From positions 1 through 20,326 of the IMG/VR virus record IMGVR_UViG_3300009499_000028: a DNA stretch of 20,326 nt, one strand, 5' to 3'. Source of the stretch: a virus. The notes under the pieces were generated by a model that was not told where the DNA came from, searched no databases, and worked only from the letters and a program-made list of their open reading frames with translations. Positions 6,132 through 18,077 of this stretch are shown here, piece after piece. Both the position numbers and the translations under genes were made by a program. Within the stretch, counting starts at the first letter, position 1. Each line of letters begins with the position of its first letter.

Positions 6132-6755
6132 ATGGCTGACTATGGCGACATTGTAACTCGACTTGCGGTAGACTCGAACATCCTGCGAATCTACCCTAAC
6201 GCTCTGGTTCAGATATATGAATCTGGGACCAGCAACCTCATCTGGGAGGGAACAGCTGACGCTAATGGCAACTGGGATGTTCCTACTCTGACCACAGGCA
6301 AGTATGACATCAAGGTAGATGGCCAGATAAGACGAACCGTTCACCACGTCAAGGCTGACCATACTCACATTCCTCCTGAGTCCTGGATGTGTTTCAAAGG
6401 AGGAGGCATCACATCCGACCAGGATGAGTCCAATGCTGTGATGGTTTATGGTAGTGAGGTAGGTGGGACCATCACCAAAGTGATAGTCTTGGTTCAAACT
6501 GTAAGTGCCACTGGGGATATGTATGTTCATATCCTGAAAGGTGTCAGTGAGGGTGGGGCTATTCTAACAGTGGCCAGTGATTCGGTCTGGAATCATAGAG
6601 TGTATCCTGGCAGTGCCTGTTATAGGTATATGCACGAGGATGACAACCCTGGCATAGATGTGGCGGCAGGTGAGGCCGTGACTATTGGGATTGACTTCGT
6701 CGCCACTCAGGTTCAGGGATTGACAGTTTTGATGGTGTTTGAACCCAGCTCTTAA
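6132..6755 (+). CDS. Two-domain beta-rich structural protein (possible head decoration/fibre)
   Basis: A 207-residue protein of unknown function, probably in the virion. Residues ~20-75 look like a small transthyretin/carboxypeptidase-regulatory-like beta-sandwich (ALVQIYESGTSNLIWEGTAD then ANGNWDVPTLTTGKYDIKV). Residues ~90-207 form a second beta-rich domain homologous to the whole of the next protein: both have GG-x-IT, a TG-x6-LKG-xS block, a V-x-PG-xA-x2-R block and a final F-x-P. The start ATG 6132 follows TGAGGAAATAAAAG. It lies between the head morphogenesis and protease genes, so a head surface or accessory role is likely. No signal peptide or membrane segment is seen. Confidence 0.75.
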   Translation: MADYGDIVTRLAVDSNILRIYPNALVQIYESGTSNLIWEGTADANGNWDVPTLTTGKYDIKVDGQIRRTVHHVKADHTHIPPESWMCFKGGGITSDQDESNAVMVYGSEVGGTITKVIVLVQTVSATGDMYVHILKGVSEGGAILTVASDSVWNHRVYPGSACYRYMHEDDNPGIDVAAGEAVTIGIDFVATQVQGLTVLMVFEPSS

Positions 6756-6770
6756 AAGAAAGAGATAGTT

Positions 6771-7181
6771 ATGAATTGGAAGAGAGCTTTTCGCTTGGCT
6801 CAAAGAGAGCCTGTTGCCTACGTTTTTTTCAGTGGGGGGAACATCACAGGGGATGTCACCGAGGGTGTGCAGTCTATGATTTATTGTCCTGGTAAAAAAG
6901 GACGGATTGTCAGACTGGAGTTGGCAGCGCAAGCTGTGAACTCCACTGGGAATGTTGTCATTCACCTTTTGAAGGGCAACTCCTACGGGTCGACAGCTTT
7001 GGATTTGACTGCCTCTGCTGCCTCAATCACAGTCAATCCGGGTGCTGCTTGTAAGCGGTTCGTTCAGCAAAAGAAGGTGGACATTCCCGTCGACGCCAAC
7101 GACTGTTTTCTTCTGGGGGCAGCCTTCACTGCTACTGCTGTCGGAGGTGTCACTCTGATTGCTCACTTTGTCCCTGATTGA
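6771..7181 (+). CDS. Single-domain paralogue of the preceding beta-rich protein
   Basis: A 136-residue beta-rich protein aligning with the C-terminal domain of its upstream neighbour: SGGNITGDVTEG against GGGITSDQDES, NSTGNVVIHLLKGNSYGS against SATGDMYVHILKGVSEGG, and VNPGAACKRF against VYPGSACYRY. It lacks the neighbour's N-terminal small beta domain. This is an old tandem duplication, since DNA similarity is weak while the protein pattern is clear. Function is unknown. Position among head genes suggests a capsid surface or accessory protein. ATG 6771 lies 15 bases after the previous stop behind a purine-rich AAAGAAAGAGATA leader. Confidence 0.75.
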   Translation: MNWKRAFRLAQREPVAYVFFSGGNITGDVTEGVQSMIYCPGKKGRIVRLELAAQAVNSTGNVVIHLLKGNSYGSTALDLTASAASITVNPGAACKRFVQQKKVDIPVDANDCFLLGAAFTATAVGGVTLIAHFVPD

Positions 7182-8647: not shown

Positions 8648-9910
8648 ATGGACAATCAGGAAATCCTGGCTCTGTTCAATCAATGGGCGGAGAAGCGAGG
8701 CATTGTTTCCAAGGCAGAGGGAGGTGTCCTTGACCTGACCACTATGAACTTTGGTGGTCTTCTTCCTCGAGAAGTCGTGGAGGACTTAATCGTTCTGACC
8801 CGAAAACAGAGCGATTGGCTGGCGGCATTGGACACCAAGGTTCGGACTCAAGCCGCTGGAACAGTTCCCATCTTCGACCTGAATGAGCCGGTGACCGAGT
8901 ATGTGGGTGAGCACGACCCCACCCCGATCACCACCCGGCCGACTTCTGCAGTGGCTCCTTACTCCTGCAAGAAGTTCCGTAGTGACCTCTACATCACTAC
9001 TGAGGACTTGCGGGAAGCAGTGGCCGCTGGGATTCCGAACTTCGAACAGAAGCTGACCGAATCTTGGGCGATTCAACTTGGCAACGATGTCGCTGATGTC
9101 GTTATCAATGGAGATAAAACCCTGGATTCGCTCACCCGTCGGAATCGGCTCCGTAGGGGGATAAACGGACTGGCGAAGCAGTCTGACCTTGCGAACATCT
9201 ACAATGCCTTGGGGCAGGCTTGGGGTCAGGGAATCTTTGCCGCTATGCTGGACAAAATGCCTGACCGGTTCGCCAACGACCCCAATCTGAGGTGGCTCTT
9301 CAATCGGAGGTTGAACATAAACTGGCACGCCTCTCTGACCAACGTCAACACCACCGAGAGAATGAGGTCCGGGTTGGGGGATCAAGTGATCTCTACTTCG
9401 ATCAACGTTCCCCCGTTGGGAGTCAGCCAGCTTATCGTTCCCCAGATTTCTTCCAATGAGGGAATCTCGGCAGCTCCGGATACCATCGTCGACAACACGA
9501 CCTACCTCACCGCCAGGGTAAACTCTATTCTCGTCGACACCACCGACTCTACCGGTAGAAAGGTGAAGATAACCTATAAGCCTACGGGTTTGTCGGAGAT
9601 CTTGACTGTCTACTATACCTCCACCCAGAACACGATTAAGACCGTTGGCCTGCTGGGTCAAACCACCGTCGACACCACTGCTGCTAACTATGTGGTTCAA
9701 ATCTACGACGAGACCCACCTCTATCTGATGAACCCCAAATCTCTGACTCTGGTCTATTGTTCTGAGTGGCGGTCCTACCGGGAATTCAACAAGGACTACG
9801 ATCGGTTCGAGATCACGACCTACTTGGAGCTCGATGTTCTTCTGCCCACCGCAGATGCCGTCGTCAAGTTCAAGCGGGTTCTAGTGGCCCCCATCACCTC
9901 CTGGTCTTAA
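8648..9910 (+). CDS. Major capsid protein with inserted beta-rich module
   Basis: Main shell protein, HK97 fold inferred. Features of the family: the N-terminal GLLPREVVEDLIVLTRKQSD region, FRSDLYITTEDLREA before the spine helix, and the C-terminal LYLMNPKSLTLVYCSEWR followed by an ITTYLELDVL strand. The 420-residue length exceeds the usual ~320-340. The excess is residues 272-356 (GISAAPD ... IYDET), inserted between VPQISSNE and LYLMNPKSL; this module recurs twice in the protein at 11774-12688. Without it the length is ~335. The ribosome site AGGAGGAAAGCACG is strong. Codons favour C-ending forms compared with neighbours, as expected for the most abundant virion protein. Confidence 0.9.
   Translation: MDNQEILALFNQWAEKRGIVSKAEGGVLDLTTMNFGGLLPREVVEDLIVLTRKQSDWLAALDTKVRTQAAGTVPIFDLNEPVTEYVGEHDPTPITTRPTSAVAPYSCKKFRSDLYITTEDLREAVAAGIPNFEQKLTESWAIQLGNDVADVVINGDKTLDSLTRRNRLRRGINGLAKQSDLANIYNALGQAWGQGIFAAMLDKMPDRFANDPNLRWLFNRRLNINWHASLTNVNTTERMRSGLGDQVISTSINVPPLGVSQLIVPQISSNEGISAAPDTIVDNTTYLTARVNSILVDTTDSTGRKVKITYKPTGLSEILTVYYTSTQNTIKTVGLLGQTTVDTTAANYVVQIYDETHLYLMNPKSLTLVYCSEWRSYREFNKDYDRFEITTYLELDVLLPTADAVVKFKRVLVAPITSWS
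9461..9715 (+). repeat. Copy of shared structural module inside the capsid gene
   Basis: Codes capsid residues 272-356. By hand alignment about 62 of its first 80 residues match, without gaps, the second copy in the head-closure-like gene (12296-12535). The core TGRKVKITYKPTGLSE is identical. Shared exact DNA includes CCTACGGGTTTGTCGGAG and GCTGCTAACTATGTGGT. Confidence 0.9.
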
Positions 9911-9947
9911 TCTGACGGGAGACTGAAATAAGGAGGAATGAGAGACT

Positions 9948-10358
9948 ATGTCAAAACAAGCATACCGGTTCGATCTTATAGCGGCTACCTACAGCACCGC
10001 TGGGGCCAGCTATACCAAACCCTGGTCTGTAACTCTTGAGGAGGGAGACCCACGGATTTCTGAGTTCAGAAACAACGGGTGTTTCAAGGAGACTCCGGTG
10101 ATGTTGCCGGAGCCTCCTCCTCCCAAAGAGGAAACCCTCTCCTTTACCAAAGAGTCTCCTACTGGGGACATCCCCAATATCGCCTCCAAAACCAAAGAGG
10201 CTTTGATTGAGGCCGGTTATGAAACCATTGGGGAGATCTTGGATGCCTCTGAAGAGGACCTGACGGAGATAGAAGGCATTGGCGGAAAGACTGCTGATGC
10301 CATCATCTTTGCCTGTCAGGAAGCTCTGGGTTTGGTAAAGGAAGAGGAAGAAGAGTAA
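9948..10358 (+). CDS. Virion-region protein with C-terminal helix-hairpin-helix
   Basis: A 136-residue protein. Residues ~1-50 are unrecognised (YRFDLIAATYSTAGASYTKP). A Pro/Glu-rich linker (PEPPPPKEE) follows, and then a helix-hairpin-helix pair at ~75-125: IPNIASKTKEALIEAGYETI followed by ILDASEEDLTEIEGIGGKTA. The GIGGKTA hairpin is a non-specific DNA-backbone binding motif known from RNA polymerase alpha CTD, NusA and repair proteins. An acidic tail (VKEEEEE) ends it. The ribosome site AGGAGGAATGAGAG is good. Position right after the capsid gene suggests a head-associated protein, possibly contacting packaged DNA or another virion protein. Function is inferred. Confidence 0.8.
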   Translation: MSKQAYRFDLIAATYSTAGASYTKPWSVTLEEGDPRISEFRNNGCFKETPVMLPEPPPPKEETLSFTKESPTGDIPNIASKTKEALIEAGYETIGEILDASEEDLTEIEGIGGKTADAIIFACQEALGLVKEEEEE

Positions 10359-10394
10359 ATCGTTCACCTCACTATAAAAGATAGGAGAAACTAA

Positions 10395-10910
10395 ATGCCT
10401 GGAGTTGGCAGATTTGGATTCGGAATCGTTGGCGGTGTGGGAGTAGAGTCCCAGATATTCCAGAACCGAGTGATCGAGGGAATGTTGGTTGGAGTCCCTA
10501 CCACCCCTTCCTCTCAGGTGACGGGAGCTGGAGCCTACGACTTCAATGCCGACATCGCTACGGGTCTATTGGCCGTTGATGGCACTGTGAAAGAGTACGC
10601 CGTTCAGGCTGACTATGATGTAGGAAGCGGCGCCGCCGCTATTCTCATCGTAGGTCAGTCGGTAGTCTACTCCATCATCGCTTACAAGAGTAAGGGTGAT
10701 GGGGTTGTCTATATGAAGTCGGTTCAGGGTGTGGTGGCAACTACGGGACTCCAAGTGGCTCCCACTGATGCCGCCATTGAGGCAAACCTCGCCGACGGGA
10801 CCTTCTGGTATAGGTTGGCGAATGTGACTGTCAACAGGACTGGTGACACTACTGTCACTCAGTCTCAAGACAACACCGTTCGTCCTACTCTTATCATCAC
10901 CAGAGCCTAA
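10395..10910 (+). CDS. Probable capsid accessory/decoration protein
   Basis: A 171-residue, beta-rich, weakly charged protein. The N-terminus is glycine-rich (VGRFGFGIVGGVGVESQIFQ). The middle and C-terminal parts alternate hydrophobic and polar residues (AAILIVGQSVVYSIIAYKSK, then FWYRLANVTVNRTGDTTVTQ), as in virion surface proteins. I do not recognise a named family. It lies two genes after the capsid protein and before the connector, where accessory shell proteins are common. It has an ATAGGAGAAACTAA ribosome site. No signal peptide is seen, although the first ~20 residues are rather apolar. Confidence 0.72.
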   Translation: MPGVGRFGFGIVGGVGVESQIFQNRVIEGMLVGVPTTPSSQVTGAGAYDFNADIATGLLAVDGTVKEYAVQADYDVGSGAAAILIVGQSVVYSIIAYKSKGDGVVYMKSVQGVVATTGLQVAPTDAAIEANLADGTFWYRLANVTVNRTGDTTVTQSQDNTVRPTLIITRA

Positions 10911-10919
10911 GGAATCACG

Positions 10920-11540
10920 GTGGCCTACATCACTGTTGCGGATTTAAGAGCTGAGGGTGTTACAGACCCGCCATACGATGATGAGTATGTGGCGGTCCGT
11001 ATCGCCCTCGCTCAATCCTTAATAGAGGAGTTGACTGGTCGCTTCTTTGAAAAGAAAGCGGCCTATGTAGTTACTCTGGATGGCACTGGCCACGATTTGT
11101 TATGGTTGCCTGTCCCGCCTACCGGTGCCGATTCGATAACCAAAGTAGAAGTAGGTGGGGACGAATTGGACACTGATGATTATGAACTACTTATGCCGGC
11201 CGTTCCCGATGGAAGATTCAATCCCAAGCTCCGTCTTTTGAGCGGATACTGGCCCATTGGCAAAAGCAATATAGTTATCACAGGGGATTTTGGCTTTGTC
11301 GATCCAGGGGAGACCCCGACCACCCCTGTCAATATACAACACCTTTGCAAAAAGATCGCCGTTTGGGGATTGCCTATGGTCGGCGACCCCGAGGCTCAAC
11401 GCGGAGGACAAATCATCCAAGAGTCCTTAGGGGACTACAGCTACAGACTTTCCGAAGTTGGCCAAAGGGGTTTCTTTGGTGACTCTACAATTGATGGCCT
11501 TTTAGCGATGTATAAAACCAAGAGAATAAGAAGAGTCTGA
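10920..11540 (+). CDS. Head-tail connector protein (gp6/YqbG-like)
   Basis: Adaptor ring protein that docks under the portal and receives the tail, of the HK97 gp6 / SPP1 gp15 / YqbG type. The N-terminal half has the characteristic pattern ITVADLRAEGVTDPPYDDEY, then IALAQSLIEELTGRFFEKK: a helix bundle starting with a short acidic segment and the ..I..A...IE..TGR.F signature. The C-terminal part is beta-rich with a helical end. Length (206) is on the long side but fits the YqbG-like subgroup. Start is GTG 10920, ten bases after the previous stop; the ribosome site (TAAGGAATCACG) is modest. Confidence 0.8.
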   Translation: MAYITVADLRAEGVTDPPYDDEYVAVRIALAQSLIEELTGRFFEKKAAYVVTLDGTGHDLLWLPVPPTGADSITKVEVGGDELDTDDYELLMPAVPDGRFNPKLRLLSGYWPIGKSNIVITGDFGFVDPGETPTTPVNIQHLCKKIAVWGLPMVGDPEAQRGGQIIQESLGDYSYRLSEVGQRGFFGDSTIDGLLAMYKTKRIRRV

Positions 11541-11543
11541 AAG

Positions 11544-11765
11544 GTGATAGTAGAGGTTATAGCTACAGGAGCGATTGGATTCTGTGGGGGGATTGGAGTC
11601 GCTTATCTCGGAAGCATAAGAAAGGTGGTTCGCCACTGCGTGGACATAGAACATCTCAGTGAGGCGGTTAGGGTCAATGCCGAGAACCATACCAAAACTC
11701 TGGGTCTTCTCACGAAAGTAGTTGACCAGAACAACCTTCTAATTCAGAAGATAATAGCGGAGTAG
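11544..11765 (+). CDS. Small single-pass membrane protein
   Basis: A 73-residue protein with one hydrophobic segment at residues ~2-25 (IVEVIATGAIGFCGGIGVAY) followed by a basic patch (RKVVRH). An amphipathic helix follows (ENHTKTLGLLTKVVDQNNLL). This gives a predicted N-out or N-in anchored protein with a coiled-coil tail. Start is GTG 11544, three bases after the connector stop, so translation is probably coupled. I do not recognise a family. Candidates are a holin-like or membrane-anchored assembly factor, but the position inside the connector genes is unusual for lysis functions. Confidence 0.65.
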   Translation: MIVEVIATGAIGFCGGIGVAYLGSIRKVVRHCVDIEHLSEAVRVNAENHTKTLGLLTKVVDQNNLLIQKIIAE

Positions 11766-11773
11766 TAGTCCTG

Positions 11774-12688
11774 ATGCCAAGCCTTTTTTTGAAGGACCGC
11801 TATAAGACCTTCTTTAGAGAAGTGGCGGGTCTCACTACAGTCGGCTACTATGCCTTCACAGAAGGTGGGGGGATAGATGAGCTGACAGGGGATATGCTTG
11901 ATGAGAGTCAAGCCTATGCTGAGACTCCCATTTCCCTTTCTGCCCTTATAGTTCACAGTCCCTCCCAGGCGGTTCGAGAGAAGATAGGCCTCGAGATAGA
12001 GTTTGACTCTTTAGTCAGATTGTCTCAACAGCAACTCGCAGAAAAATCGGTGGCAGTTAAGATTGGAGACGCTTTTATTCTGCCTGGGGATCTCCAACCT
12101 CCTACCTTTATCGTTGATCAGACCACTTACATCACTGCCAGAGTCCACTCTATTCTTGATGATGCTGTAGATTCTACTGGTAGGAAAGTGAAGATCACTT
12201 ACAAACCTACGGGTTTGTCGGAAATCTGCACCGTCTACTACGAATCCAGTCAGAACAAGATTGACACGACTGATCTCTTGGGTCAGGAGACTTCTGGAAT
12301 CTCCGGAGCTCCCACTTCCATTGTTGACCAGACTACCTACCTCACTGCCAGAGTTCATTCCATCCTCGATGATGCCACGGATTCTACCGGTAGGAAAGTG
12401 AAGATCACTTACAAACCTACGGGTTTGTCGGAGGTCTGCACCGTCTACTACGAGTCCAGTCAGAACAAGATTGACACCACCGGTTTGCTGGGTCAGACTA
12501 CCGTCGACATCATCGCTACTAACTATATGGTTCAGATGGTTGACATCACCGCTGCTAACTATGTGGTCCGGATATACGATGAGACCCAATGGCACTATGC
12601 GAAGAAACTGGTTTTGGGGAAACAATTTGAGAATGAATTTTTAGACTTAACAGTAGCTGTGAAGAGGGGGGTTGGTAGGCGTGGCTAA
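11774..12688 (+). CDS. Head-closure-like protein with two tandem copies of the shared module
   Basis: Probable neck protein next to the connector, judged by position and by the flanking parts. Residues 1-109 contain VREKIGLEIEFDSLVRLSQQ and VAVKIGDAFILPGD; residues 272-304 contain HYAKKLVLGKQFENEFLDLT. Joined, these would make a ~142-residue beta-barrel-like closure protein of normal size. Between them lie two 70-codon tandem copies of the module also found in the capsid protein: copy 1 residues 110-179, copy 2 residues 180-249 plus a tail to 271. By hand count, 55 of the first 60 residues agree between the copies. Exact family membership of the host protein is uncertain. The stop overlaps the next gene by 8 bases. 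Confidence 0.75.
   Translation: MPSLFLKDRYKTFFREVAGLTTVGYYAFTEGGGIDELTGDMLDESQAYAETPISLSALIVHSPSQAVREKIGLEIEFDSLVRLSQQQLAEKSVAVKIGDAFILPGDLQPPTFIVDQTTYITARVHSILDDAVDSTGRKVKITYKPTGLSEICTVYYESSQNKIDTTDLLGQETSGISGAPTSIVDQTTYLTARVHSILDDATDSTGRKVKITYKPTGLSEVCTVYYESSQNKIDTTGLLGQTTVDIIATNYMVQMVDITAANYVVRIYDETQWHYAKKLVLGKQFENEFLDLTVAVKRGVGRRG
12101..12520 (+). repeat. Tandem 210-bp direct repeat (two copies) encoding the shared module
   Basis: Copy 1 is 12101-12310 and copy 2 is 12311-12520, a period of exactly 210 bases (70 codons). A 44-base stretch (12179-12222) is identical to 12389-12432, and the following ~45 bases differ at only about three positions. The last ~30 bases of each unit diverge. 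Confidence 0.92.
12503..12574 (+). repeat. 36-bp tandem micro-duplication in module tail
   Basis: Two 12-codon units, VDIIATNYMVQM and VDITAANYVVRI, lie head to tail. The capsid copy of the module has only one such unit (VDTTAANYVVQI), so the connector copy carries an extra 36-base duplication that has since diverged. Confidence 0.8.
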
Positions 12689-13331
12689 ACATCTCTATGG
12701 TGATTGGGATAAGGCACTCGGTCGTCTCAAAAATATGAACAGCCTTATGGCGAAGAATATCCGAGTGGCCACTAAGGAGAATGCCATTGGTCTCAGGGAC
12801 GAAATTAAGAGGACCATCCGGGATGGCAGAAGTGAATGGCCTTCATTATCGGGAATCACTGTTAAGGTTAAGGGTAGTTCCAAACCTTTGATTGGCCACG
12901 GGGATTTGATGAACAGTGTGACCGCTCAAAGTCTTGGTTCTTTTGGTTTCTTTGTAGGTGTGCCTCGAGCAGTAAAGAACTCCGAAGGGGTGGAGATGGT
13001 GAACATCGCCCGGGTCCAGGAGTTTGGAGCTAAGATCAAACCCAAAGTGGCCAAAGCCTTGACCATTCCTGCTACCAGAGAAGCCCAAGTCTTAGCTCAC
13101 CGAAATAGGGGAGTTAGAAATATCCCCGGCCTCTTTCGACCAAAAGGGACCAGAGTACTGGCCAGAAAGGGAGCCAAAGGATTTGAGGTTATGTTCATCT
13201 TGATGAGTCAGGTAGAGATTCCCCCCAGACCCTTTGTTGGACCTACCTTTGAGGACAATAAGGACGCTATGAAGAAGAGATGGCGACGGGCCGCCAAAGA
13301 TGCCCTGCAGGGGAGGGTATATTTTGGCTGA
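12681..13331 (+). CDS. Phage virion morphogenesis protein (Mu gpG / HK97 gp10-like)
   Basis: Member of the virion morphogenesis/HK97 gp10-type group (PF05069-like), acting in tail completion or head-tail joining. It shows EWPSLSGITVKVKGSSKPLI followed by GHGDLMNSVTA, the W-x-L-S / L-x-x-TG-x-L-x-x-S-like signature of this family. A later RVQEFGAKI and a C-terminal EIPPRPFVGPTFEDNKD (P-x-R-P-F) are hallmarks. GTG 12681 is preferred because GAGGGGGG (12663-12670) is spaced about 10 bases upstream. TTG 12672 would sit right against that sequence. It overlaps the previous gene by 8 bases (GTGGCTAA), which implies coupling. Length is ~216 residues. Confidence 0.82.
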   Translation: MAKHLYGDWDKALGRLKNMNSLMAKNIRVATKENAIGLRDEIKRTIRDGRSEWPSLSGITVKVKGSSKPLIGHGDLMNSVTAQSLGSFGFFVGVPRAVKNSEGVEMVNIARVQEFGAKIKPKVAKALTIPATREAQVLAHRNRGVRNIPGLFRPKGTRVLARKGAKGFEVMFILMSQVEIPPRPFVGPTFEDNKDAMKKRWRRAAKDALQGRVYFG

Positions 13332-13923
13332 ACTATTGCGGGATGTATTCAAGAGCCTCCGGGACTACTTTCAGACCAATCTGACGGCTGACAGAGTAGT
13401 CCTGGGTTTTCGAGATGAGCGCTCTGAGGCTGAACCGGAGCGCGACTATCCTGAGGTGACCGTCACTTTGTATGATGCCCGCCTTGATAATGCCGGTAGG
13501 TATGGTGGCCTGTTCAGAACTGTTGCCGTAAATCCCGACGGCAAGACAGCCAAGATAGGAAGAATTCCCTCCCCTCTTAATCTTTACTTTCAACTGGATA
13601 CCTTCTGTGAGAAGAGAGAGGATGATTGGATTTTGTCCCGGGAGGCTATGGGACTGTTGGGAGACCGATATACTAAAATCACTACCGATGATGGTAGGGT
13701 TCTTCACTTTTTCCCCGTCTCTATGGATGTGCTCGATACCTTGACCGCTGATGTTATATGGAGAAAGGCGTATAGGTTTTTTGTTCAAGTCTGGCTTGAC
13801 AGTCCAGCCGCCGCTGAAGATGCCTACCTGGTCTTAATTCGGCGACTGAAGATGGAGGGAGAAGTCTGGGATATGGATTCGTCACCTTCTGTTCTGTCTT
13901 GTGGCAAAATCTACGGTGCTTAG
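13324..13923 (+). CDS. Tail terminator / tail completion-like protein
   Basis: About 199 residues, probably the protein that caps the tail tube and sheath and joins the head. Supporting points are gene order (after the gpG-like gene, before sheath) and an overall pattern common to this group: an N-terminal helix (LLRDVFKSLRDYFQTNL), then DYPEVTVTLYDARLD, then a beta-rich region with FQLDTFCEKREDDW. No diagnostic motif is seen, so this is inference. TTG 13324 is the likely start because GGGGAGGG (13310-13317) precedes it by 6 bases. The in-frame ATG 13300 would overlap the previous gene by 32 bases without a ribosome site. Confidence 0.7.
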   Translation: MAELLRDVFKSLRDYFQTNLTADRVVLGFRDERSEAEPERDYPEVTVTLYDARLDNAGRYGGLFRTVAVNPDGKTAKIGRIPSPLNLYFQLDTFCEKREDDWILSREAMGLLGDRYTKITTDDGRVLHFFPVSMDVLDTLTADVIWRKAYRFFVQVWLDSPAAAEDAYLVLIRRLKMEGEVWDMDSSPSVLSCGKIYGA

Positions 13924-13931
13924 GAGTAGTT

Positions 13932-14981
13932 ATGGCAACTGACTTGGAAAAAGCTTTGTGGGCCGCTCGAAATTGTTCTCTCGTGATCACCTTCGAAAAA
14001 ATAGACCAATTTGTTGGTCGAATGAAGGAAGCCAATTCTCGTCTGAGACTTCTTAGATATTCTCGTCCAGCTCTCACCACTGAGGAGTCAATGGAGCCAT
14101 TTCCCGGTTCTGTAGTTCCCATTGGGAATTTGAAGACTGCTCACGATGACTGGTTCTGGAAAACAGAGGGTGGGGAGTATATACATCCCACCGTGGCTCC
14201 CCATCAGAGTGAACGCTATCTTATGGACCCCGCGGCGGCGTTAAATGGTTTTTGTGACTATTGGGTCACCGAATTTCTCAAGTTCGCCGACGCTGGTTTT
14301 TATAATGGTATTATGGCCGACCTGACCTGTATTAGAATTCAGAAGATGGAACAATACTATCCTGGTTGTTCCTGGAAATATCCCACTCAGGCGGAGTTCG
14401 AGGTCGTTCAAGAGGCTTTCCTGGCAAAGCTAAAGGGGGTTCTTAATGAACACGGAATGCTTCTTGTTCCTAACAGTCCCAACATTGATTCGCCCACAGA
14501 CCCAGACTATTTGGTGAATGTCTGGAAGGACATTGTTGATGGCTGGAACAGGCAATGGTTTATGATGAAGGCTAAGAATGAACCTGGAGACCCATTTATG
14601 ACCAAGGTCAATTGCGAAAGATTTATGACTATCTGTGACGCCTATTCTGCTGATGGCAAGTTGGTCGTAGCTCAAGTCTCTCCCCGATATATGGAACAGG
14701 GGTTTTCAGAGGACCAAGTTCGAGCTGACATTCTCTATTGTATTCGCGGTTATCTTCTCATCAAAAATGACCCTTGGGTATATATGACTGTCGATTGGAA
14801 TGGCGCCTTTGCTAAGATGGAAGACCTGTTCAATATCTTCGGGGACCTATTTGAATACAAATATGGAAATCCGGTTGGCGATCGATTCGAAGAGGGGGGA
14901 GTTTGGAAAAGACGGTTTGAGAACGGGATGATAGTTGAGGTAGATATGGCAGCTCAGACTTCATCCTTCGGTCCAGAATAA
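13932..14981 (+). CDS. Glycoside hydrolase-like (GHL15-type) TIM-barrel protein
   Basis: A 349-residue protein resembling putative glycosyl hydrolases of the GHL15 type (PF14885). It has DDWFWKTEGGEYI (substrate-side loop after strand 2), LNGFCDYWVTEFLKFADAGF followed by YNGIMADLT (family pattern of a helix then a strand ending in a catalytic-position Asp), LVPNSP, and GKLVVAQVS. The diagnostic C-terminal GVWKRRFENGMIVEV corresponds to the family's R-x-FENG strand. No signal peptide is seen. ATG 13932 has AGGAG 6 bases upstream; the longer frame from TTG 13899 lacks this. It sits between tail-terminator and sheath genes, so it may be virion-borne and act on host surface glycans. Activity is inferred and the family match is from memory. 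Confidence 0.7.
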   Translation: MATDLEKALWAARNCSLVITFEKIDQFVGRMKEANSRLRLLRYSRPALTTEESMEPFPGSVVPIGNLKTAHDDWFWKTEGGEYIHPTVAPHQSERYLMDPAAALNGFCDYWVTEFLKFADAGFYNGIMADLTCIRIQKMEQYYPGCSWKYPTQAEFEVVQEAFLAKLKGVLNEHGMLLVPNSPNIDSPTDPDYLVNVWKDIVDGWNRQWFMMKAKNEPGDPFMTKVNCERFMTICDAYSADGKLVVAQVSPRYMEQGFSEDQVRADILYCIRGYLLIKNDPWVYMTVDWNGAFAKMEDLFNIFGDLFEYKYGNPVGDRFEEGGVWKRRFENGMIVEVDMAAQTSSFGPE

Positions 14982-14994
14982 AAGGAGAGAAGAT

Positions 14995-15303
14995 ATGGCA
15001 TTTGAGATAATCAATCGTCAGCCTACCTTTCTGACGATCAGGCTGAAATCAACTGAGGTTGTCATTGGACCTAAAGCCACAAAGGGTCCTTACGCTGACC
15101 AAGAACTCTCAGCTGACATTAGGCTGAGAGAGAGTAGAGGGGACCTAAGTCTTCGTTATATAAAGAAAGAGATTCCCCAAGAGGAGGTTCCCCAAGAGGA
15201 GATCTCCAAACTGACAGAGGAGGCGGAAGATCTCCAAAGGGAGGAAGGAACAGATATTTTAAGCGAATCTAAACCGAGAAGGAGGAAAAGAAGAGATGAG
15301 TAA
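14995..15303 (+). CDS. Small pre-sheath protein, charged C-terminus
   Basis: A 102-residue protein. Residues 1-55 form a small beta-rich domain (FEIINRQPTFLTIRLKSTEV, then LSADIRLRESRGDLSLRYI) with an L-x-x-RGDL ending common to short proteins encoded just before tail sheath genes. The remaining half is acidic (EEVPQEEISKLTEEAEDLQR) and ends with a very basic SKPRRRKRRDE. The ribosome site AAAAGGAGAGAAGAT is strong. It overlaps the sheath gene by 8 bases, so the two are probably co-translated. The function is unknown. A role in sheath assembly is inferred only from coupling. Confidence 0.72.
   Translation: MAFEIINRQPTFLTIRLKSTEVVIGPKATKGPYADQELSADIRLRESRGDLSLRYIKKEIPQEEVPQEEISKLTEEAEDLQREEGTDILSESKPRRRKRRDE
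15173..15202 (+). repeat. 15-bp tandem repeat (two units)
   Basis: TTCCCCAAGAGGAGG is followed directly by TTCCCCAAGAGGAGA (one mismatch). It encodes part of (I/V)PQEE repeated twice in the acidic linker of the small pre-sheath protein. Confidence 0.8.
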
Positions 15304-17011
15304 TTACAATGTGGGTGTGAACTTGGTAGAAGGCCAGAGCCTATCCCCTATTGGGGGAGTCACCACTGGAATCTGTGGTCTGATGGGGAACTTCGTCAAG
15401 GGTCCTCTTCACGAGGCCACCTTGGTGACCAACCTCAGTCAAGCTCAGGGGATATTCGGAATCAAGCCTCCTACGGGGTGCACTTCCGCGTATTCGGTTA
15501 AGGCCTTCTTTGCCAAGGTAGGCTCCGGTCGACTCTACATAGTTAGAGTGGCCAGCTCTGCCGCCGCCAAAGCCTTCAAGACCTTTCAAGACCGTCAAGG
15601 CGGTCCAGCGGACACTCTGAAGGTCTACGCCAAAAATGAAGGGATATGGGGAAACGCTCTCCAGGCGGACATCGACGACTACAGTATCCTCTCCACTGAA
15701 CCCGAAGTCACCATTCCTGTTGAGGCTGAAAGTGGCCGGCTGGTTTCTATAGAGGGCTTGGAAGTGGGCTCCGATCTCGAACTTGACAATGGGACCAATC
15801 AGGAGTATGTGCGAATCACCCAGATTGACGCCGCCAACAAGACAGTCTATTGGACTGGGGGATTGACTTACTCCTATCCTACCGAGACTTCCACCGTCAA
15901 ATCGATGGAGTTCTCCCTCAAGATCTACGACACCAGCCTTCTGGTGGAGACCTGGGATGGTCTGTCGATGAACGACGCCGTGACTTTCCACTGTGAGAGG
16001 GTGATTGCTGGCAACAGCAACTATATCACAGTGGAGGACCTCAAGACCGTCGACACCGACTACACAGATCTCCCGGCTGTCACTACTCCGCAAGCTCTAA
16101 CGGGTGGGGCCGACGGTCTTTCGGATGTGACCAAGGATGACTACGTCGGAGTCGAGGCCAGTAAGACAGGCAAGTATGCTTTCGACGCCGTTGAGGGACT
16201 GTTCCGTTTTGACTGTCCCAATCCTCTGCTGACCAATGGCGACCTTGAGGTCGCTTACAAGGCTTTGGTTCAGGACCTCCTGGACTACGCCAACACCAGA
16301 GTTCTGACCCACTTCATTGGAGATGTGCCCTATGGCAAAATCCCGACTGAGGCGGTGACTTTCCGGAACAACTTCGCAGGGAGAAGGCTCACTTGCTGGT
16401 ATCCCTGGATGAAAGTCCTTGAGGAGAAAGTAGAAGTCTTTCTCCCCCTCTCCAGCTTCGTTCTTGGGTGTTCGGTCGAGAAGGACTATCGGAGGGGCGT
16501 CCATAAGAACATCGGCAACGAAGCGATTCCCTACGCCATCGACGTCGAGTATCCCGTCTCAGTTCCGGAGGGGGAGGTCCTGAATGACGCCGGAGTCAAC
16601 GTCGCCAGAAAGTTCCGGGGCAGAGGGATAAGGACCTATGGTGGAAGAACCTGTAGCGCCTTGACGCTATGGAGATTCAACCACTACGCGGAGCTCTGGA
16701 GCTACATCGGGAGAAGCCTGATGGAAGGCTTGGCCGATGTTCCCTTCGAACCTCACGATCAATTCCTCTGGAAGTCGGTCATCCGTCGGGTCGAGGCTTT
16801 CCTCGCCAACGAGCAGAGTAAAGGAGCACTATTCGACGCCTCCAATCCCACCGGAAAAGCCTATCTGGTGAAGATGGACTCCTTCAATAACCCCAATGAC
16901 CAGATAGCTCTGGGAATCGCTATGGTGGAGGTTGAGTATGTCCCTGTGGGAACCGCGGAGAAGTTCGTCATCAAGCTGACCAGCTCTCCTACGGGTCTCT
17001 CCGTAGCCTGA
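15296..17011 (+). CDS. Contractile tail sheath protein
   Basis: Forms the outer contractile cylinder of the tail. The 571-residue length is typical of myovirus sheaths. The N-terminus (VGVNLVEGQSLSPIGGVTTG, then GLMGNFVKGPLHEATLVTNL) matches the usual start, an outward strand then a small domain ending in F-V-G/N-F-x-KGP. YIVRVASSAAAK and YAKNEGIWGNAL precede an inserted protruding domain (~residues 130-240). The C-terminal conserved part contains GRGIRTYGGRT, WRFNHYAELWSYIGRSL and a final VEYVPVGTAEKFVIKL strand. GGAGG 11 bases upstream supports ATG 15296. Codons are strongly C-ending, like the capsid gene, consistent with high expression. Confidence 0.95.
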   Translation: MSNYNVGVNLVEGQSLSPIGGVTTGICGLMGNFVKGPLHEATLVTNLSQAQGIFGIKPPTGCTSAYSVKAFFAKVGSGRLYIVRVASSAAAKAFKTFQDRQGGPADTLKVYAKNEGIWGNALQADIDDYSILSTEPEVTIPVEAESGRLVSIEGLEVGSDLELDNGTNQEYVRITQIDAANKTVYWTGGLTYSYPTETSTVKSMEFSLKIYDTSLLVETWDGLSMNDAVTFHCERVIAGNSNYITVEDLKTVDTDYTDLPAVTTPQALTGGADGLSDVTKDDYVGVEASKTGKYAFDAVEGLFRFDCPNPLLTNGDLEVAYKALVQDLLDYANTRVLTHFIGDVPYGKIPTEAVTFRNNFAGRRLTCWYPWMKVLEEKVEVFLPLSSFVLGCSVEKDYRRGVHKNIGNEAIPYAIDVEYPVSVPEGEVLNDAGVNVARKFRGRGIRTYGGRTCSALTLWRFNHYAELWSYIGRSLMEGLADVPFEPHDQFLWKSVIRRVEAFLANEQSKGALFDASNPTGKAYLVKMDSFNNPNDQIALGIAMVEVEYVPVGTAEKFVIKLTSSPTGLSVA

Positions 17012-17055
17012 GCGGGATTGAACAGTTAATTCTTAAAATAGGATAGGAGAAAGAT

Positions 17056-17514
17056 ATGCCAAAAGAATACGGGAAAGCGGCTCCCGACGCCAACTATGAG
17101 ACCAACGCCAAGTTCCTTTTGGAGATTGAAGGGATCGCCGTGATGGCTTTCGAAAAGATAACCACAGGCGACTCCGAGTGGGGAGTCATCGAAGGCAGAA
17201 CAGGTATCGATGAGCTGGTCAAAGGAACCTCTTCAGGACTGAAGAAGCCAATGACTATCACCATCGAAAAACACCTTCGGGTGGGGGGAGTCGACGATAT
17301 AAAGGAGATCGTCGACTGGCACAATGCCGGCTCCAAAGACCGGAAGAGTGGGGCAGTGGCCCATTTGGACCGTGATGGAGCTGAGACCATAAGGTTCAAT
17401 TTCCGGAACGCCTGGGTTCCAAAGATGACCGTGCCCGAATTGGACGCCAGTCAGGACTCCAACCCGACGGTCTTCGTCTTTGACCTGAGTATCCCGGAGA
17501 TAACTTTAGGCTGA
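17056..17514 (+). CDS. Tail tube protein (T4 gp19-like), first of two
   Basis: Inner tube subunit of the contractile tail. The 152-residue protein follows the sheath directly. It has the gp19-fold pattern: FLLEIEGIAVMAFEKI, IDELVKGTSSGLKKPMTITI, VDWHNAG, and a late FRNAWVPKMTVPELDASQD strand-loop equivalent to the W-P-x-K...L-x-A segment of tube proteins. The ribosome site ATAGGATAGGAGAAAG is strong, suggesting high production. Its stop overlaps the next gene's ATG (TGATG). Of the two tube-family proteins this one, adjacent to the sheath and better signalled, is the more likely main tube subunit. Confidence 0.82.
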   Translation: MPKEYGKAAPDANYETNAKFLLEIEGIAVMAFEKITTGDSEWGVIEGRTGIDELVKGTSSGLKKPMTITIEKHLRVGGVDDIKEIVDWHNAGSKDRKSGAVAHLDRDGAETIRFNFRNAWVPKMTVPELDASQDSNPTVFVFDLSIPEITLG

Positions 17515-18077
17515 TGTCTCTAATATCCGCTCCAGAGCAAATCATTGAAGCTCTTGATGTCCTCGGCTTAGAGAGGCTCAAGGGTTTCAACTTTGCCGTC
17601 CAGATAGATGGCCAGTTCACTGGGAGCCAATTTGTCCTTGGTTTCGAATCTGTTGATGGCCTCAGTGAGACTCTGGATGTAAAAGAAGTTCTGGAGGGAG
17701 GTTATCCTGGGAGACACAAATTCCCTCGGAAGGCCAGACAGAATGCCATCACCTTAGTTCGAGGTATGACTTTCAGTAGGTCTTTTTGGAATTGGCATCA
17801 AGAGGTGCTCAACTGGACTAAGGGTCAGCCTGACTACAGAAGAACGATGTCCATTTATATGTTGGACCAGATTGTCAAAGTTGGGATGACTGTGAAGTTT
17901 GAGGCTTGGCGATGGGATTTGTTTCAGACTTGGCCTTCAGAGTGGCTTGGGCCACCCCTAAAGGCCAATGAGGAGAAGGCGGCATTTGAGGCCATAGTCA
18001 TTCAGCATAGTGGAATCTCCGAAGCCGAAGGAATTTTTAGTGGGACTGCTGGAGAAATTTTAGGCGTATTTCAATAG
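17514..18077 (+). CDS. Second tail-tube-family protein (TIGR02241-like)
   Basis: A 187-residue protein of the phage tail-tube group also found in extracellular contractile injection systems. Seen are FNFAVQIDGQFTGSQF, GGYPGRHKFPRKARQNAITL, VRGMTFSRSFWNWHQEVLNW and the late WRWDLFQTWPSEWLGPPLKA segment, the family's W...P..W.GP.L.A block. It is coupled to the preceding tube gene by TGATG. Two tube paralogues side by side suggest a main tube plus an initiator or adaptor ring where the tube meets the baseplate, as known for injection systems; that role is inferred. The C-terminal tail (~20 residues, Gly-rich) is extra. Confidence 0.82.
   Translation: MSLISAPEQIIEALDVLGLERLKGFNFAVQIDGQFTGSQFVLGFESVDGLSETLDVKEVLEGGYPGRHKFPRKARQNAITLVRGMTFSRSFWNWHQEVLNWTKGQPDYRRTMSIYMLDQIVKVGMTVKFEAWRWDLFQTWPSEWLGPPLKANEEKAAFEAIVIQHSGISEAEGIFSGTAGEILGVFQ

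Follow-up and report, generated by a model that had tools for sequence, protein, structure and literature searches.

In a tailed phage for which metagenomes are the only source, the major capsid protein (MCP) contains one copy of a protein module of about 80 residues and a neck protein contains two tandem copies of it. We think it probable, if by no means assured, that this module is an accessory domain of an MCP loop, which was copied together with its linker into a loop of the head-closure protein, was duplicated there, is displayed on the particle surface and has been kept under purifying selection. The window (i.e. the whole stretch of DNA analysed, 20,326 nucleotides) corresponds to the 20.3-kb virus record IMGVR_UViG_3300009499_000028. 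It comes from a contractile-tailed phage and spans the genes for packaging, head and neck together with the first tail genes. Its gene set comprises TerL, portal, a Mu-F-like protein, an XkdF-type protease (PF14550, E 6e-25), MCP, an HHH protein, a head-tail adaptor, the neck protein, Neck1, sheath and tube (Table 1). A gene for an N6/N4-type DNA methylase (118-1134; PF01555, E 3e-33) lies immediately upstream of the packaging genes.

Table 1. Coordinates in the window of the module copies, the genes that carry them and the genes used as anchors
Feature	Position	Strand	Basis
Major capsid protein (MCP), HK97 fold, 420 aa	8648..9910	+	phrog_1623, TIGR01554, ~70 homologues
MCP module copy, linker GISAAP through IYDET	9461..9717	+	DNA repeats, BLASTP, alignment
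Head-tail adaptor, gene order anchor	10920..11540	+	phrog_442 E 3e-24; homologue in L100
Neck protein (head-closure position), 304 aa, two tandem modules	11774..12688	+	Gene order, L100 homologue
First neck module copy, without C-terminal tail	12098..12295	+	DNA repeats, BLASTP, alignment
Second neck module copy, linker GISGAP and tail	12296..12586	+	DNA repeats, alignment
Neck1 / tail completion protein, gene order anchor	12672..13331	+	phrog_222 E 4e-26; homologue in L100

The repetition is evident in both proteins and DNA. BLASTP aligns the MCP with the neck protein at E 6e-40 (gapped, second neck copy) and with the first neck copy at E 3e-26 (70% over 70 residues), and the MCP module is 78-81% identical to the second neck copy and 70-76% identical to the first. 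The initial annotation, made from the sequence letters, had already proposed one copy in the MCP and two in the neck protein and had counted 62 matching residues out of 80 by hand, which agrees well with the computed 78% identity to the second neck copy. The DNA-level similarity it had noticed corresponds to 242-nt repeats (9461-9702 versus 12086-12327, 62%, and versus 12296-12537, 77%) and to a repeat of the module tail (9668-9717 / 12539-12588, 84%). The sizes it had predicted after removal of the module (~335 and ~142 residues) were likewise recovered, as about 335 residues are left in the MCP and 139-142 in the neck protein, and a naturally module-free homologue of the latter, described below, is 139 aa long. 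The tandem has to be qualified in one respect: there are indeed two copies, but the first one stops short of the module's C-terminal tail. The second copy ends with a 12-residue duplication (12503-12538 / 12539-12574). In the MCP, the module is preceded by the linker GISAAP, and the two neck copies are separated by its counterpart GISGAP, suggesting that linker sequence of the MCP was part of the transferred segment. Gene conversion between the neck copies was considered and is not claimed (longest shared run, p 0.025, uncorrected for 15 pairs). The genome is incomplete, and additional module copies might exist in tail genes beyond the window.

Only one other pair of window genes has a common segment at E <= 0.01, namely two adjoining small genes (6132-6755 and 6771-7181), which share a domain of ~124 residues (34% identical, E 5e-18) and thus contain the second duplicated domain of the head operon.

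Identification of the capsid gene relies on a match to phrog_1623 (E 7e-28, residues 25-409), accompanied by a match to TIGR01554 slightly under the cut-off (E 8e-6, 25.2 bits for a cut-off of 27.5). The alignment with the module-deleted core places the module between 'LGVSQLIVPQIS' and 'LYLMNPKS'. This core gives a clean alignment with relatives lacking the module ('LGVSQLIVPQI' facing 'FGIPIVEVPLL', and 'LYLMNPK' facing 'IHLTFPNN'), which locates the module in the intervening loop. Correct placement was obtained only with module-deleted or selected sequence sets, as MAFFT often matched the module itself with the loop of relatives that lack it. The MCP alignment also matches the solved MCP of phiRSA1 (7oz4, E 1.6e-6), in which A-domain helices 239-261 are located near the capsomer centre and residues 304-307 form a P-domain loop (PMC8538268). 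The insertion point is equivalent to about residue 279 of phiRSA1, as read from a second alignment stretch which alone is not significant, and would thus fall beyond the A-domain helices and before the P-domain loop. These landmarks fit an insertion in the A domain, between a conserved G-x-P...P strand and an L-x-N-P strand.

The same loop seems prone to acquire other sequences. About 70 distant MCP relatives from viral contigs (about 350 aa, range ~330-390 aa) have a short loop at the module site, and a further scan with an alignment of the window MCP and that of another relative, L100, yielded 19 other relatives (L126-L144), at least 15 of which carry a different domain of ~120 residues in this loop (MCP residues about 255-390). 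This marks the loop as a hot spot for insertions. The longer domain is weakly Flagellin_IN-like, a single member matching that family slightly under the cut-off (E 1.5e-4); the domain was not found in any neck protein. The module could be a shortened descendant of this Flagellin_IN-like domain, an origin that we regard as possible but doubtful. The insertion site is identical, a 'D..GR.v.i...TG.S' pattern looks alike by eye and the Flagellin_IN match of the one long-domain member points the same way, but the profile comparison by hhalign without flanks gave an E of 0.49 and shuffle tests gave no consistent signal. Homology between the two, promising by eye, was therefore not retained, and the site is all that they certainly have in common.

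At the receiving end, the neck protein gene lies between the adaptor (phrog_442) and Neck1 (phrog_222) genes, and its two modules are located between 'FILPGDLQ' and 'WHYAKKL'. No convincing match to a closure family was obtained among PHROG and Pfam profiles for the module-deleted protein; its designation as a head-closure (stopper-like) protein thus follows gene order rather than family membership. The deleted core does match the 139-aa homologue in L100 (E 1.4e-14). As regards the neighbouring adaptor gene, homologues in four of the relatives from the further scan (L128, 10939-11916; L130, 9666-10625; L138, 9765-10793; L140, 9592-10545) encode 318-343 aa versus 206 in the window, each apparently with two inserted stretches.

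Only three module-bearing lineages are known, two of which are closely related. Two contigs from other metagenomes (L003 and L004) show the same three-copy arrangement, with 94% identity to the window in the MCP and 86% in the neck protein, so that an assembly chimera can be dismissed. The more distant L100, a 62-kb record found via its portal protein, contains a whole head operon. Its MCP (16790-18052) is 43-46% identical to that of the window in the core and has a diverged module at the same site (36% identity), which is detected at E 1.9e-6 by an HMM built without L100 and aligns with a score of 110, a value reached in none of 2000 shuffles (maximum 70). Its neck homologue (20075-20494, 139 aa) contains neither the module nor any remnant, and the full record holds a single module copy. 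Two further observations concern these relatives. L100 has a similar-looking 208-aa gene (14861-15487) at the position of the window's pair of adjoining small genes, and two overlapping window ORFs (13300-13923 and 13899-14981) correspond to a single continuous 557-aa ORF in L003 (7327-9000) and in L004, which reflects either a fusion in L003/L004 or a frameshift in the window.

As L100 has the module in its MCP and not in its neck protein, the direction of copying is read as MCP to neck. In the simplest history compatible with these sequences, the module is old in the MCP, being already inserted in the loop of the HK97-fold protein in the ancestor shared with L100; after the L100 split, in the line leading to both the window phage and L003, module and linker recombined into a near-C-terminal loop of the head-closure protein, and the neck copy was then duplicated in tandem before these two separated. 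Copying from the neck to the MCP, or a loss of neck copies in L100, appears highly improbable: a tree built from the copies does not resolve them (support 59/98 for the neck group) and leaves room for it, but the L100 neck protein shows no trace of a module while the MCP of the same phage has one.

The age of the copying can be gauged from divergence at synonymous sites. Between MCP and neck copies, dS is about 1.1 or more, or saturated, versus 0.3-0.6 for the orthologous core regions of the window and L003; orthologous module copies themselves show values of ~0.4-0.5 (MCP and second neck copy) and 0.95 (first neck copy). As dN reaches only 0.14-0.26 between MCP and neck copies, and 0.06-0.26 over all module comparisons, the copies appear older than the window-L003 split and under purifying selection. 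This bears on the idea of a neutral spread, in which a tolerated insertion occupies two permissive loops and has no dedicated function. The MCP loop does take inserts, from short ones to about 120 residues among relatives, but all copies have been under purifying selection over a long divergence and the MCP module has been retained since the L100 split, which makes such a spread very unlikely.

The initial annotation had also described the module as a portable domain copied between structural genes, not recognised as Ig-like or any other named domain. At the level of sequence the second part stands, as six module copies gave no match to Ig-like families (Big, I-set, FN3) at E up to 10 and nothing in Pfam, PHROGs, NCBIfam, the PDB or a phage collection matched the module; weak profile matches, such as that to Saf-pilin, were discarded as chance. 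Copying is upheld, with a direction added, but portability applies only within this lineage: viral contigs, genome contigs, phages and plasmids yielded no copy other than those of these phages, and scans of genome contigs with either the module or the MCP returned no relative. Module-free versions of both genes, which it had proposed to look for, do exist (MCPs in the ~70 relatives, neck protein in L100). AlphaFold2 models of both proteins were of very low confidence and too poor for use, with a pLDDT of 27 for the neck protein and of 35 for the MCP (from 39 aligned sequences selected to leave the module as a clean gap); the latter model retrieved mostly capsid proteins at the top of a Foldseek search against the PDB, none of them significant. 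The module would presumably fold separately.

Accessory domains carried by structural proteins of phages often protrude from the virion, and binding to cell surfaces or virion stabilisation has been proposed for them (PMC9022992; PMC9230969). By this analogy, and judging solely by where it is inserted, the module is most likely exposed on both the shell (on capsomers) and the neck, where it would point outward in hundreds of copies and in a ring of tandem copies, respectively. It may function in adhesion or stability, through weak surface contacts (with cell-surface or particle material) or by stabilising the particle. Another reading, attractive but in our view unlikely, is that the neck copies bind MCP modules around the portal vertex, in which case the duplication would lock the neck to the shell instead of displaying an adhesin. 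Within the window, the module is indeed found only in these two proteins and the neck copies remain close to the MCP copy, but L100 manages without neck copies and the closure ring normally lies past the adaptor, farther from the shell. Proteins of the neck region can nevertheless touch the shell, as does the attachment domain of the RcGTA adaptor, which binds capsid proteins (PMC7296036). It seems quite unlikely that we are dealing with a new family of virion-surface domains in which a capsid domain is reused at the neck for homotypic contacts at the shell/tail joint; if true, the same binding surface would be employed on two rings of different symmetry.

With the favoured explanation, a copied and displayed MCP-loop domain, the phage would offer an unusually clear example of the reuse of a capsid part at a second site of the particle. 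Donor, recipient and an outgroup without the copy together indicate how a domain taken from a phage's own capsid gene may, once copied into a neck gene, give rise to a new structural feature. They also mark one MCP loop as a site of domain turnover, of use to studies of how capsids come to be decorated.

Several known systems can be compared with this one. PBSX/skin-type head regions have an XkdF protease and YqbF/G/H/I-like genes in a characteristic order; the window resembles them in its XkdF-matching protease and in the succession of MCP, HHH protein, adaptor, closure and Neck1, and differs in having the additional modules and further small structural genes. The I-domain of the P22 coat protein is longer than about 80 residues. 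It interrupts the A domain of an MCP with the HK97 fold and is not conserved (PMC9965877). Sequence landmarks would put our module in the A domain too; it is set apart by its shorter length (about 80 residues) and by having a copy in another protein. The Flagellin_IN-like domain of the L126-L144 relatives (~120 aa) shares the insertion site in homologous MCPs, whereas the module is shorter, has no significant sequence similarity to it and is also present in a neck protein. According to PMC9022992, which cites Fraser et al. 2006, Ig-like domains of tailed phages are small additional beta domains, occur on several kinds of structural proteins including MCPs and are exchanged between phages. The module is similarly a small extra domain on structural proteins, among them the MCP, but it lacks any Ig-family match, its recipient is a neck protein, outside the five classes listed in that text, and it was copied within one genome in a direction that can be read. 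Movable accessory domains are already known from the structural proteins of phages, and the capsid-to-neck copy adds a variant to them.
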